From contig JAKQPS010000033.1 in the NCBI GenBank assembly GCA_029564595.1, positions 1-6,478 of the forward strand: a DNA stretch of 6,478 nucleotides, in the 5' to 3' direction. Shown in pieces: positions 1-5,580 of the stretch. The DNA is from a bacterium (GTDB lineage Bacteria > UBP15 > UBA6099). The translations under genes and the position numbers were made by a program. The number at the start of each line of letters is the position of its first letter. Within the stretch, counting starts at the first letter, position 1. The notes under the pieces are model-generated. The model made no database searches. It was given only the letters and a program-made list of their open reading frames with translations, and had not been told where the DNA came from.

Positions 1-1059
1 GTGATCCGCGCCGAAGTTGACGCTGCCGCCCATTTCGAGGACATGCTGGCGGAACTGCGCGCCCGCGTTGCTCTCGCCGACGCGGCGGACGACGAGGAAG
101 GATACCGGGAAGCCGTCGAGGAATTGCGGCACGGCACTCGCTCCGCGTTCACCGAGATGTCCCGCCTGCGTCACGAAACCGCCGTCGCCAAGATCCCCTA
201 CGTTATCGAGCACGTCAAAGAGTCCGTAGAGAGCACGGGCAAGGTGATCGTGTTCGCGCACCATATCGACGTATTGAACGCCTTGACGGAAGCGTTCGGC
301 GCTGAAGCGGTTTGCCTTCAGGGTAGTACGCCGCAGAAGGAACGTCAGGAAGCCGTTGACCGCTTCCAAAACGATCCGAACGTCAAGGTTTTCGTCGGCT
401 CGATCACGGCGGCGGGAGTTGGAATCACGTTGACCGCGTCGAGTCACGTGATTTTCGCGGAATTGGATTGGGTTCCGGGAAACGTGACCCAGGCCGAGGA
501 TCGCGCCCACCGGATCGGACAAACCAATAGCGTTTTGATTCAGCACCTGGTCCTGGAAGGTTCCCTGGACGCGACGATGGCCCGGACCATTGTCCGGAAG
601 CAGGAAGTGATTGACGGGGCGTTGAACGCTGAATATAACCCGGCGGACCTGGAAACGGACAATCTGGAAGCGATCCGGGCGGCGGCGGAACAGGCGGCGG
701 CGGCGGCCTATAACGCGGAACATCCGGATAACCGGGAACCGAAGGCGGAAAAACCCACTGACAGGCCGAAGGCGGAACCGAAACGGAAGGCGCGGGAAGT
801 ATTCACGGACCAGCAGATTGACGCCTTGGAAGCGGCCCTGGCGACCTTGGCGGGGCTTTGTGATGGGGCGGTGAGCCGGGACGGTTTCGGATTTAACAAG
901 TGTGATGCCTACATTGGGAAATCCTTGGCGATGAGCGGAATCTACACCGAGAAACAAGCCGAACTCGCCAAGTCAATCCTGAAGAAATACCACCGTCAGA
1001 TCGGTGACGGTTTGATGTGCGCCATCTATGGCGAAAACTGGAACAAAAGAAAGGGATAA
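1..1059 (+). CDS. SNF2/RapA-family DNA helicase, C-terminal half (5' truncated by window edge)
   Basis: This is the second RecA-like domain (Helicase_C) of an SNF2-type ATP-dependent DNA translocase. Motif IV is KVIVFAHH (residues 81-88), motif V is SITAAGVGITLT (134-145), and motif VI is QAEDRAHRIGQ (164-174) with the two arginines that contact ATP. The first RecA-like domain, with Walker A and DExH box, is missing. The frame is open at base 1, so the initial GTG is probably an internal valine and the gene starts upstream. Residues 215-270 are an Ala- and Lys/Glu-rich linker. Residues 270-352 form a separate small domain containing FNKCDAYIGKSLA and a helix rich in Lys and Gln; from memory, similar tails occur on phage SNF2 helicases. 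The stop lies 3 nt before the clamp gene, so the two are co-transcribed. The family call is secure; a role in phage replication or recombination is inferred from context. Confidence 0.93.
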   Translation: MIRAEVDAAAHFEDMLAELRARVALADAADDEEGYREAVEELRHGTRSAFTEMSRLRHETAVAKIPYVIEHVKESVESTGKVIVFAHHIDVLNALTEAFGAEAVCLQGSTPQKERQEAVDRFQNDPNVKVFVGSITAAGVGITLTASSHVIFAELDWVPGNVTQAEDRAHRIGQTNSVLIQHLVLEGSLDATMARTIVRKQEVIDGALNAEYNPADLETDNLEAIRAAAEQAAAAAYNAEHPDNREPKAEKPTDRPKAEPKRKAREVFTDQQIDALEAALATLAGLCDGAVSRDGFGFNKCDAYIGKSLAMSGIYTEKQAELAKSILKKYHRQIGDGLMCAIYGENWNKRKG

Positions 1060-1062
1060 GGC

Positions 1063-2181
1063 ATGGAATTTACGATCAACTCGAAAGAACTTAAGCAGGC
1101 AATCACCAAGGTGCGCGGGGTGACGGGATCGCCGATCTCGCATCCCGCCATCGAGTACATCCACGCCAAGGCCGACGCGGAGCGCGTCGCGTTCATGGCG
1201 ACGAATCTCAACCTCACGGCGATCTGCAAAGTTGAGGCTGACGTGCAGGCGGGCGGCGAGATCCTCTTCCCGCCGCTATGCGTGGAGGTATTCCCCGACC
1301 TGCCGGACGGCGACGTGTCGATCCGGTGCAACGCGGAGAAGATCGCTGTCAGTGTTGGCCGGTTCAAATCCAAACTAACCGGCCTATCGGCTGAACTCTA
1401 CCCGGTAATCGAGCGCCTGGAGACATACGACCAGATCACCATGGAGGCAGATCAACTCGCCAGCGCAATCCGGTTCCTCCTGCCGTTCACATCCACGGAC
1501 AAGTCCCGTTTCGAGTTGGATGGCATTTTCTGGGTGCTGGAGAAACACCGCATGGAGTTGGTATCCACCGACGGGCGGCGTCTCGGTATCGTCTGGAACG
1601 GGTATCCCGAGGACTCGTTCACGGACAAGCATGAGGCGCTGGTCTCCACGCACACGTGCGAGACGCTCCTCAAGACGCTGCCGAAGTCTGGCGTAGTGAT
1701 CGTGCGCTTCGCGCCGCGCCGGATCGAATTTGACATGCCCGGCCAGGTTATCCAAGCGAATTTGCTCACGCCGAATTTCCCGCAGTACCACCGCATCATC
1801 CCGGATGAGCAGTTTCCCGAGTTCACGGTCGAGCGCAAGCCGATGATCGAGGCGCTGCGCCGCGTCGCCAAGGTGACGGACACGGAACTCTGCAAAGTCA
1901 GGATGAAATTCAACGGCGACACCATAACGCTCGACGGCGAGTACAGCGACAAGGGCGCGGAGGGCGAAGAGCAGTTGGAATATCGTCCACTCTCAGACGA
2001 GACGCTTCCCGAGATGCTCTTCAACGTCCATTACATGCTTGATCACTTGACGACGTTTAAGGGCGACATACTCAAATTCGGCGTCTGTAAGCGCAAGCCG
2101 ATCATCATCACGTGTGACGAGGAGCCGGACCGCAAAGCGCTAGTCCAGCCGATCAGGCCGCCGGAGGAGGACGAATCATGA
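1063..2181 (+). CDS. dnaN: DNA polymerase III beta subunit (sliding clamp), phage-type
   Basis: This is a ring-forming processivity clamp that encircles DNA and tethers polymerases and repair proteins. Its 372 aa are close to the 366 aa of the E. coli clamp. The N-terminus (FTINSKELKQAITKV, from residue 3) is typical of the first domain. The peptide-binding pocket is recognisable: STDGRRL at 168-174 matches E. coli TDGHRL around 172-177, and FPQYHRIIP at 239-247 matches FPDYRRVLP. The C-terminus ALVQPIR (359-365) aligns with YVVMPMR, so the pocket methionine M362 is replaced by Gln, and an acidic tail of 7 residues (PPEEDES) follows. The start is ATG 1063, preceded by a purine-rich AAGAAAGGG in the end of the helicase gene. 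The stop overlaps the next start (ATGA). Host-like clamps occur in some phages but are uncommon. No clamp loader or polymerase is visible. Confidence 0.95.
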   Translation: MEFTINSKELKQAITKVRGVTGSPISHPAIEYIHAKADAERVAFMATNLNLTAICKVEADVQAGGEILFPPLCVEVFPDLPDGDVSIRCNAEKIAVSVGRFKSKLTGLSAELYPVIERLETYDQITMEADQLASAIRFLLPFTSTDKSRFELDGIFWVLEKHRMELVSTDGRRLGIVWNGYPEDSFTDKHEALVSTHTCETLLKTLPKSGVVIVRFAPRRIEFDMPGQVIQANLLTPNFPQYHRIIPDEQFPEFTVERKPMIEALRRVAKVTDTELCKVRMKFNGDTITLDGEYSDKGAEGEEQLEYRPLSDETLPEMLFNVHYMLDHLTTFKGDILKFGVCKRKPIIITCDEEPDRKALVQPIRPPEEDES

Positions 2182-2429
2182 GCCAATACGTAACTCGCTG
2201 TGGTATCTGTTCGCGGACGCTCTTATTCGACACGCCGGATTACCCTAGCCCGACTCTTTGCCAGCCGTGCGTTGTGCAGGCCGTGGAAAAGCACAATGAC
2301 GGCGAAGAGAAGAAGGACAGCCTCTACGCCGAACTGGAAGAAATCAAGGATTCGGCGAATGAGGCAATCAACGCGGCGGAAGCCATGCTTTGCAAGATCA
2401 ATGAAATCCAAGGACGATTGGAAGAATGA
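2178..2429 (+). CDS. Small zinc-ribbon / coiled-coil protein, function unknown
   Basis: The 83-aa protein has two parts. The N-terminal 35 residues contain two CxxC pairs (C8/C11 and C28/C31), the pattern of a four-cysteine zinc ribbon. Residues 36-83 are highly charged with heptad-like hydrophobics (LYAELEEIKDSANEAI), predicting a helix or coiled coil. The start ATG overlaps the clamp stop codon (ATGA at 2178-2181) and is preceded by GGAGGA, so translation is probably coupled to the clamp. The stop in turn overlaps the next gene. I do not recognise a named family. A protein-interaction or DNA-binding adaptor fits the fold, but this is inference from the cysteines and the operon position only. 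Confidence 0.8.
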   Translation: MSQYVTRCGICSRTLLFDTPDYPSPTLCQPCVVQAVEKHNDGEEKKDSLYAELEEIKDSANEAINAAEAMLCKINEIQGRLEE

Positions 2430-3052
2430 GGGTGATCCACGACAAGAAGCGCGGCTGCGGATGGCGCAAGAAAGGCGGTCTTTATCTCGTCGCCGAGACG
2501 CTCCTGAACACGTGCGGCAAACTCCCGCTCCCGCTCGCCGTCTGCCCGTGCTGTGGCGCGGGAATCAAACCGGCGCGGGGATGGACGTGGGTTGACGGCG
2601 ACAAACTGTTCGCCCACGTTCCTTGTCCATACGACGAGAAGGGCAACGATAGTTGCCGATGCTTGCTGGCGTGGCCCGTGGGCAAGTGCGGCCTGCTGTG
2701 GGTAGGGGAGTCGTTCTATCCGACTCCCCAAGGCTTCTGCCGGGAAGTCGAGCGCCAGGGTGTTTCACGGCGCGTCTACCGCCTGCCCGAGAAGTTCATT
2801 CCCGGACACACGCCCGTTCTGCTCGCCCACCGGCGCGCCGTGCGCGAGACCGATCCGGCGACGGGTGAAGTCACGTTCAAGCCGGGCATCTTCGCGGCGT
2901 TCCGGCCCAGCGAAGTGCAATACCTGACTCGTGGCAACGAGACACCCGAGCAACTGGCGCGCATGGAGGCGCGTGGCATCACGCCCGTGCGCATCGTGCG
3001 GGAAAACGCCGATTTACTACAATGCAATCTTTTCTCGGACGTAGCCTATTGA
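2426..3052 (+). CDS. Cysteine-rich phage protein with C-terminal clamp-binding-like motif
   Basis: This 208-aa protein is of unknown function. Cysteines are concentrated in the first half: C11, C30, the CPCC cluster at 40-43, then C67, C77, C79 and C88, suggesting one or two zinc sites. The middle (93-165) carries VGESFYPTP, GVSRRV, LPEKFIPG, VLLAHRRAV and GIFAAFRPSEVQYL, spaced like a compact conserved domain; I have an impression of similar phage hypotheticals but cannot name a family. The last ten residues begin QCNLF (199-203), matching the beta-clamp-binding consensus QxxLF and differing from UmuC's QLNLF at one position. Translation starts at ATG 2426 inside the previous stop (ATGA), with GGAAGA just upstream. 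This is the last gene of the helicase-clamp run; its TGA lies inside the -35 box of the next promoter. A clamp-associated DNA-processing factor is a reasonable hypothesis, not shown. Confidence 0.85.
   Translation: MRVIHDKKRGCGWRKKGGLYLVAETLLNTCGKLPLPLAVCPCCGAGIKPARGWTWVDGDKLFAHVPCPYDEKGNDSCRCLLAWPVGKCGLLWVGESFYPTPQGFCREVERQGVSRRVYRLPEKFIPGHTPVLLAHRRAVRETDPATGEVTFKPGIFAAFRPSEVQYLTRGNETPEQLARMEARGITPVRIVRENADLLQCNLFSDVAY
2705..2729 (+). other. Perfect 9-bp hairpin inside a coding region
   Basis: GGGGAGTCG (2705-2713) is followed by a 7-nt loop TTCTATC and the exact complement CGACTCCCC (2721-2729). It lies within the codons for GESFYPTP of the cysteine-rich protein. No T-tract follows, so it is not an intrinsic terminator. 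It could be a coincidence of codon choice or an mRNA structure that slows ribosomes or RNase. Confidence 0.5.
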
Positions 3053-3077
3053 CAATGCGCAAGAAAGTGCATACATT
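3049..3077 (+). promoter_or_regulatory. Sigma70-like promoter for the HTH gene block
   Basis: A consensus -35 hexamer TTGACA (3049-3054) is separated by exactly 17 nt from a -10-like TACATT (3072-3077, 4 of 6 consensus matches). The spacing is optimal and the ATG of the XRE gene is about 40 nt downstream. The -35 box overlaps the TGA stop (3050-3052) of the preceding gene, so the intergenic space is almost entirely regulatory. This is the best promoter seen in the window. Confidence 0.7.
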
Positions 3078-3115: not shown

Positions 3116-3352
3116 ATGAACGACCAAAATCTATTGCAAGAGTTCGGGCGGCTGGTCCGGCAAACCCGCAAGAGCCGGAAAGTCTCCGCCGCGAAACTCG
3201 GGAACGAATTGAATCTGTCTGTTGCGACCATATACAAGGTTGAACATGGGCAATACACCCACTTCTTCACGCGGCGGCGCATCGCCAACTGGCTCAGTAC
3301 TCTCTCTGACGAATTATCCGTCGTTAGGGAGAAATTTGCAAGTATTTTGTGA
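3116..3352 (+). CDS. XRE-family helix-turn-helix DNA-binding protein
   Basis: This 78-aa single-domain protein has a lambda-repressor-like fold: helix 1 at about residues 6-20, HTH helices at 24-33 (SAAKLGNELN) and 35-46 (SVATIYKVEHGQ), then a helical tail. The length suits a Cro-like regulator with no separate dimerisation or peptidase domain. ATG 3116 is preceded by AAGGAG (3097-3102) with a 13-nt gap, longer than usual, which may lower its expression; the nearby GTG at 3111 runs straight into TGA and cannot be the start. It sits directly behind the promoter at 3049-3077 and probably controls it, and perhaps also the downstream genes. It might also be the HTH protein of a small toxin-antitoxin pair, but no toxin partner is seen. 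Confidence 0.85.
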   Translation: MNDQNLLQEFGRLVRQTRKSRKVSAAKLGNELNLSVATIYKVEHGQYTHFFTRRRIANWLSTLSDELSVVREKFASIL

Positions 3353-4827: not shown

Positions 4828-5580
4828 ATGAGCGAAACCAACGGCAAACCCAATATCTACCAGCGGATAAACGCGATCATGCAGGAGATCGGCTACGTCC
4901 AGAAGGATAAAAAGAACTCCTTCATGAACTTCAAGTACGTCTCCCATGACGCGGTTACGTCGGCCTTGCGCCCGTTCCTGGTCACTCACGGAGTGGTGGT
5001 TACCTGTGACATCGTCCATCACGACGTCAAGGAGATCGCCACGGGCAAATCGGACAGGCCGGACCGTGCGTACATGACTTCAGTAACCGCCCAGGTGTCA
5101 TTCATCAATATCGACAACCCGGACGACCGGATCGTTGTCCATTCCATCGGACAGGGCATCGACAAAAACGATCTCGGACCCGGCAAGGCGGTTTCCTACG
5201 CCTACAAGTACGCCCTCCTCAAAACCCTGGCCTTGGAGACGGGCGACGATCCAGAGAACGATGGCAACGATAAACCAAAGCCACCGCAACCGCAATCACA
5301 ACAACCCAGTAAAAACAACGGTGGCAACCAGGCTGCCGCGCCGGACAACGACGTTGAAAGGGAACTCAATAAACTCGCGGTTGAGTTGTTTAGCGACGTC
5401 AACAAGGCACGGCGCGTTGCCAACAAAAAAGGCTTCGTGGTGTTTGAGGACTTCGCCAAAGCCTTCCGCAAGCACTGCGTCGAAGCGAAGACGCCCGGCA
5501 TCACGCTGAAAAAACTGTCCGCGATCCGTTCGCACAAGGAAGCGGCTGTCAACGTGATGGTTCAACTGAATCTGGAATAG
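4828..5580 (+). CDS. erf: ERF-family single-strand annealing protein (phage recombinase)
   Basis: ERF proteins bind single-stranded DNA, form rings and anneal complementary strands; in phage P22 this supports genome circularisation and recombination. The family core is clear: IYQRINAIMQEIGYVQKDKK (10-29), FKYVSHDAVTSALRPFLVTHGVVV (35-58), and the signature GQGIDKNDLGPGKAVSYAYKYALLKTLALETGDDPE (108-143). Residues 146-175 are a Pro/Gln/Asn-rich linker, followed by a separate C-terminal helical region (176-250) of unknown role, ending QLNLE. ATG 4828 is preceded by TAGGAGG (4816-4822) with 5 nt spacing. No exonuclease partner is seen in the window; the Gp157 and 58-aa genes immediately upstream form the usual recombination cassette. 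Call secure; interaction partners inferred. Confidence 0.94.
   Translation: MSETNGKPNIYQRINAIMQEIGYVQKDKKNSFMNFKYVSHDAVTSALRPFLVTHGVVVTCDIVHHDVKEIATGKSDRPDRAYMTSVTAQVSFINIDNPDDRIVVHSIGQGIDKNDLGPGKAVSYAYKYALLKTLALETGDDPENDGNDKPKPPQPQSQQPSKNNGGNQAAAPDNDVERELNKLAVELFSDVNKARRVANKKGFVVFEDFAKAFRKHCVEAKTPGITLKKLSAIRSHKEAAVNVMVQLNLE

Follow-up and report, generated by a model that had tools for sequence, protein, structure and literature searches.

Does a phage protein whose C-terminus resembles a clamp-binding motif use that motif to dock on a sliding clamp, and if so on which one, the clamp encoded beside it or that of the host? The question is raised by the early phage region that occupies the window analyzed here, the entire 6,478-base contig G000:C191. 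On it, part of an SNF2-type helicase gene is followed by a clamp gene, a gene for an 83-aa protein, a gene for a cysteine-rich protein of the family described below, and several downstream genes (Table 1). The downstream genes encode two small helix-turn-helix proteins, a Gp157-like protein, an ERF annealing protein and a replication-initiation-like protein.

The cysteine-rich gene and the clamp gene upstream

The cysteine-rich gene is joined to the clamp gene through the small gene between them, as an earlier note on this DNA had stated, and ATGA overlaps are present both between the clamp gene and the 83-aa gene (2178-2181) and between the 83-aa gene and the family gene (2426-2429). The CxxC protein encoded by the small gene has no family match above noise. 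The product of the family gene ends in ...VRENADLLQCNLFSDVAY, and the stretch on which the earlier note had focused, 3005-3052, corresponds to residues 194-208 and the stop codon. The C-tail peptide, DLLQCNLFSDVAY, includes the pentapeptide QCNLF, which, just as that note had it, lies near the C-terminus and differs from the UmuC motif QLNLF at position 2 alone. The canonical clamp-binding motif reads Q-aliphatic-x-[LM]-[FL], or the same with one extra residue before the last, and is tolerant at position 2 (PMC11139829). QCNLF fits the Q-x-x-[LM]-[FL] form, but with a cysteine at position 2, where an aliphatic residue is preferred. In the AlphaFold model of the window protein (pLDDT 89.4, pTM 0.84), the two final blocks have mean pLDDT values of 69 and 50, as against more than 90 for most of the core, which would place the motif in an accessible tail.

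The window clamp matches the Pfam clamp domains PF00712, PF02767 and PF02768 above cut-off and phrog_947 at 7e-54. The peptide pocket that had been recognized in it is indeed the canonical one: R149, L152, T169, G171 and R173 are equivalent to E. coli R152, L155, T172, G174 and R176, and L174, P240, R244, P363 and R365 are equivalent to E. coli DnaN L177, P242, R246, P363 and R365. A second clamp, a chromosomal-type DnaN with a similar pocket, is encoded on another contig of the window's genome.

The sole close relative of the window gene, L004, is 96% identical to it and lies in the same gene order in a Hydrogenedentota metagenome bin. It also bears QCNLF; its DNA is identical to that of the window gene from codon 177 on, so the pair does not count as independent evidence of conservation. 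The two near-identical phage contigs have been binned into seemingly two phyla, that of the window into one with 7 genomes and that of L004 into Hydrogenedentota, and at least one of the bins may therefore hold a foreign contig. A promoter-like TTGACA-17-TACATT (10/12; 3049-3077, plus strand) precedes the small helix-turn-helix gene at 3116, with the stop codon of the family gene falling inside its -35 box.

Table 1. Features of the window discussed in the text, with the basis on which each was assigned
Feature	Position	Strand	Basis and remarks
SNF2-type helicase, C-terminal part	1-1059		
Beta sliding clamp, phage-encoded, 372 aa	1063..2181	+	Pfam clamp domains, PHROG, pocket residues
Small 83-aa protein	2178..2429	+	CxxC...CxxC, probable helical C-terminal half; ATGA overlap with both neighbors; kept in L004
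Cysteine-rich family gene, 208 aa	2426..3052	+	ORF, alignments A1 (49 rows) and A3 (97 rows), AlphaFold; conserved core 1-190, variable C-tail 191-208
R-G-C-G-x-R-K motif, N-terminal, plus Y20 (residues 9-20)	2450..2485	+	Columns without variation in both A1 and A3
Putative zinc-binding cysteines C40, C43, C67, C79 (CPCCG...C...C)	2543..2662	+	Conservation in A1; zinc binding predicted
QCNLF, clamp-binding-like, residues 199-203, in the C-tail	3020..3034	+	Sequence, low pLDDT, motif enrichment among homologs

The family and its conserved core

The window protein has no match above noise in Pfam or PHROGs, and neither a first tblastn search against 50,697 phage records nor an initial peptide scan of virus contigs returned a match for it. 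Weak matches in relatives (L002 and L003) were set aside as chance, with an internal stop codon and unrelated genes. The family was opened by degenerate DNA patterns for two likely conserved motifs, CPxCGxGIKxxR and WxGE(16)GxSRRx, and scans with profiles and additional patterns then raised the number of distinct complete members to 125, nearly all of them from uncultivated virus contigs (IMG/VR). Five members used as tblastn queries found none in the cultured phages of the 50,697 records, and one member used as query found none in plasmids. None of the 49 members of alignment A1 is convincingly matched in Pfam, PHROGs, NCBIfam, PADLOC or the sequences of the PDB; no library model matches more than one of the 49, and those single matches are weak. 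The protein had been put forward as being of a kind not recognized as described, and the family is indeed absent from all the family libraries searched.

The core is conserved across the family and the C-terminal tail is highly variable. The core ends in ...RGITPVxV, and the tail that follows it has a median length of 18 residues, as measured on the first 87 members; in many members an alternative conserved tail, PDxDxDH(Q/R)G(S/T)VYD, stands directly after the core (for example in L018:1459-2106). Residues R9, C11, G12, R14, Y20, C30, C40, C43, W55, C67, C79, W92, G94, Y98, E107, G112, R116 and H135 are invariant or nearly so in A1 and A3. The cysteines to which the earlier note had drawn attention are thus a property of the family, with C11, C30, C40, C43 and C79 invariant and C67 kept in at least 90% of the 49 rows of A1. 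Within the core, conservation is highest at R-G-C-G-x-R-K, Y20, Y98, E107, G112 and H135. Some members (L027, L086 and L059) have an additional zinc knuckle of the CxxCxG (DnaJ-like) type, inserted after the conserved H and before the PGIF strand.

A second AlphaFold model of the family reached a pLDDT of 93.7. A PDB search with this model and that of the window protein found no analog, the lowest Foldseek E being 0.57 and VIA-align Z never exceeding 2.2; this is no proof that the fold is new. Similarity to a DNA-binding pseudobarrel (MspJI and CglI H, with Z about 2.1) was at noise level and did not recur with the better model, and the PDB matches of the second model were likewise noise (prob at most 0.06, TM about 0.1). 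An abasic-site-sensing SRAP/HMCES enzyme was considered on account of C, E and H residues and a C-terminal clamp motif; it was dropped as less probable, since it was absent from the fold matches and the cysteine is not N-terminal.

Foldseek against viral models gave one clear match, gp52 of Haloarcula hispanica tailed virus 1 (HHTV-1; UniProt R4TGE3; prob 1.00, E 8.8e-9), which by this comparison has the same fold as the family. The HHTV-1 protein keeps RGCGY.K.G..Y, YY..P.DFI.E...G and the H motif, recognizable by eye, but it lacks the CPxCG zinc module, has a large C-terminal extension, and shows no evident PCNA-box at its C-terminus. Its relative in Halorubrum tailed virus 25 (HRTV-25), gp77, is also without the CPxCG zinc module. 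These two haloarchaeal tailed viruses hold the only relatives found in cultured viruses, distant ones, and both proteins, like the family, are uncharacterized.

Recurrence of the motif in family tails

The published consensus in its relaxed form, Qxx[LM][FL] or Qxx[LM]x[FL] with position 2 left free, is matched by 19 of 122 tails (15.6%) when 1.21 are expected from shuffled tails, and 0 of 3000 shuffles reach 19. The regular expression of an initial test was written after the tails had been seen, and the fair tests are this published consensus and a replication set. For the replication set, a pattern was fixed on the first 87 members, and 38 new members, all less than 80% identical in the core, yielded 5 matches against 0.18 expected. 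When the aliphatic residue at position 2 was required, 4 of 122 tails had the motif, against 0.37 expected. Among the C-tails of the remaining ORFs on contigs that carry the family, for which the gene calls were mechanical, 1.67% contain the motif, and the enrichment is about 15-fold over shuffled tails and about 9-fold over the tails of other proteins. An unguided scan of residue pairs, run on the tails of members less than 60% identical, ranked LF second and Q..L third, behind H....Y, a pair that belongs to the alternative conserved tail.

Freely drifting tails might produce Q..L-type strings from composition or shared ancestry, and several properties of the family would fit such an incidental origin: the variability of the tails, the lack of the motif in most members, and the presence in many of the different conserved tail PDxDxDHQGSVYD (DxDH in 49 of 125). 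The size of the enrichment over both controls, its replication and the scatter of the motif over the tree all speak against this explanation, which we regard as very improbable. Since the motif is enriched beyond chance and the enrichment was replicated, it is very probably functional. Furthermore, the 24 motif-bearing members among the 125 on the tree need at least 18 changes, and the motif has therefore been gained or lost repeatedly; one 13-member clade has kept Q..[LM] in 9 of its 13 members. Judged from its distribution, the motif acts like a short linear motif that is optional and evolves fast, and the core must work without it, because most members lack it. The earlier note had asked whether QxxLF is conserved at the C-terminus of homologs; clamp-binding-like motifs there are strongly over-represented but not generally conserved, and the homologs lacking the motif, which it had named as counting against its proposal, do so in part.

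The motifs found include QAELF, QQALF (at the very end of the protein), QTSLFD, QPDLFE, QTELGL, QVSLPI and QHNLPM. The form QVSLPI resembles the QLSLPL of Hda. Other known forms have counterparts as well, QTELGL resembling the QLVLGL of DinB/Pol IV in the same way that QCNLF resembles the UmuC motif (PMC11139829). The short Q-x-x-L-(x)-F/L motif of bacterial clamp-binding proteins, including UmuC, DinB/Pol IV, Pol II, DnaE (QADMF) and Hda, is the same as that of the family, where it sits in a flexible C-terminal tail. Unlike these known clients, the family has the motif in only part of its members and often with a position 2 that is not aliphatic, and its core is no library-recognized polymerase, AAA+ or repair protein.

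Gene neighborhood and the choice of clamp

Genes within three positions of the family include those for SNF2, UvrD and other helicases, SSB, RecT, ERF, exonuclease VIII, SbcC, topoisomerase, RadC and ArdC. The 25 most frequent neighbor PHROGs include no named virion protein, and neighborhood clustering gave no constant partner gene. This DNA-metabolism company places the protein in replication and recombination, and the best reading is that of an early DNA-metabolism protein which some phages would tether to the replication clamp. We think, as a guess, that the family core binds or processes nucleic acid, possibly as an enzyme.

Clamp genes were searched for over whole contigs in 50 records with the family, namely 49 virus contigs, among them 29 with a Q..[LMIF]-type tail, and the genome bin of L004. 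Two Pfam clamp models were used, in place of a profile built from two sequences that proved too narrow. A clamp-like gene was present in 2 of the 49 virus contigs, which may be fragments, and neither adjoins the family gene: that on the L132 contig is far from it, and that on the L134 contig is a 391-aa form near the contig end. In the L004 bin the match was its own window-like clamp, and two further matches were below cut-off. The motifs QAELF, QTELGL, QVSLPI and QQALF all occur on contigs where no phage clamp was found. The possibility that the motif is kept only beside a clamp gene, which the earlier note had raised as a check, is not borne out by this survey, and a link between the motif and the phage clamp is not supported; on the simplest reading, the motif works with any ring at hand, in most cases that of the host.

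These results bear directly on the proposal of the earlier note, that the protein is a dedicated client of the phage clamp. Under this proposal the clamp, the 83-aa protein and the family protein would form one coupled module, with QCNLF recruiting to the phage ring only. The ATGA coupling of the three genes and their identical order in L004 favor such a module, as do the pocket positions at which the phage clamp differs from the host DnaN (R172, Q362 and R365) and the location of HHTV-1 gp52 two genes upstream of a viral PCNA gene (L168:37802-40285). However, equally good motifs are borne by members on contigs without a clamp found, the pocket residues that the motif would contact are alike in the host and phage clamps, no annotated PCNA lies near the HRTV-25 relative, and gp52 shows no evident C-terminal PCNA-box. 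A dedicated client therefore appears unlikely.

We consider it probable, if well short of certain, that this is a phage early-region family in part of which, the window's member included, the tail motif docks the core on a sliding clamp, mostly the host DnaN. Each such protein would have a compact core, predicted with confidence, that contains an invariant R/C/Y/E/H set and in most cases cysteines resembling a zinc knuckle; the motif in the short, disordered tail behind this core would bind the clamp at its canonical peptide pocket. Docking would keep the core at DNA that is being replicated or recombined, much as Pol II and Pol IV are retained by their C-terminal motifs. The ring in most phages would necessarily be the DnaN of the host; the window's phage could also use its own clamp, whose gene lies two genes upstream.

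A different use of the host ring can be envisioned, in which the tail fills the clamp pocket and thereby blocks or redirects host replication and repair, while the core blocks or modifies some part of the host replisome. In favor of this, the motif is found mostly in phages for which no clamp was found on the contig, and another phage protein, Gp168 of Staphylococcus phage Twort, is known to attack the bacterial clamp (PMC11139829). Gp168, however, occupies the DNA channel and not the peptide pocket (PMC11139829), a distinction drawn from the published description of Gp168. The conserved polar and cysteine core also argues for an activity beyond competition, and the neighbors include phage replication and recombination genes. 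Such a takeover factor seems to us distinctly unlikely.

Returning to docking of the core for DNA metabolism, we raise as a tentative extension the possibility that the core represents a fold or enzyme, not described before, that belongs to the replication/recombination program of largely uncultivated phages, with haloarchaeal-virus relatives, and that phages have repeatedly attached it to the available clamp by means of evolving tail motifs. Clamp tethering by a short motif is already known; here it marks a family missing from the annotation libraries searched and provides a handle on function, in that the protein should sit at replicating DNA. The fast-changing tails are a natural set for studying the gain and loss of a binding motif, and the invariant R/C/Y/E/H set makes the activity of the core directly testable. 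One further C-terminus in the window deserves mention, that of the ERF protein: it reads QLPIE in the L004 counterpart, where the window form is thus not conserved, and QLNLE in the window itself (5563-5577, plus strand), one residue from the UmuC motif.
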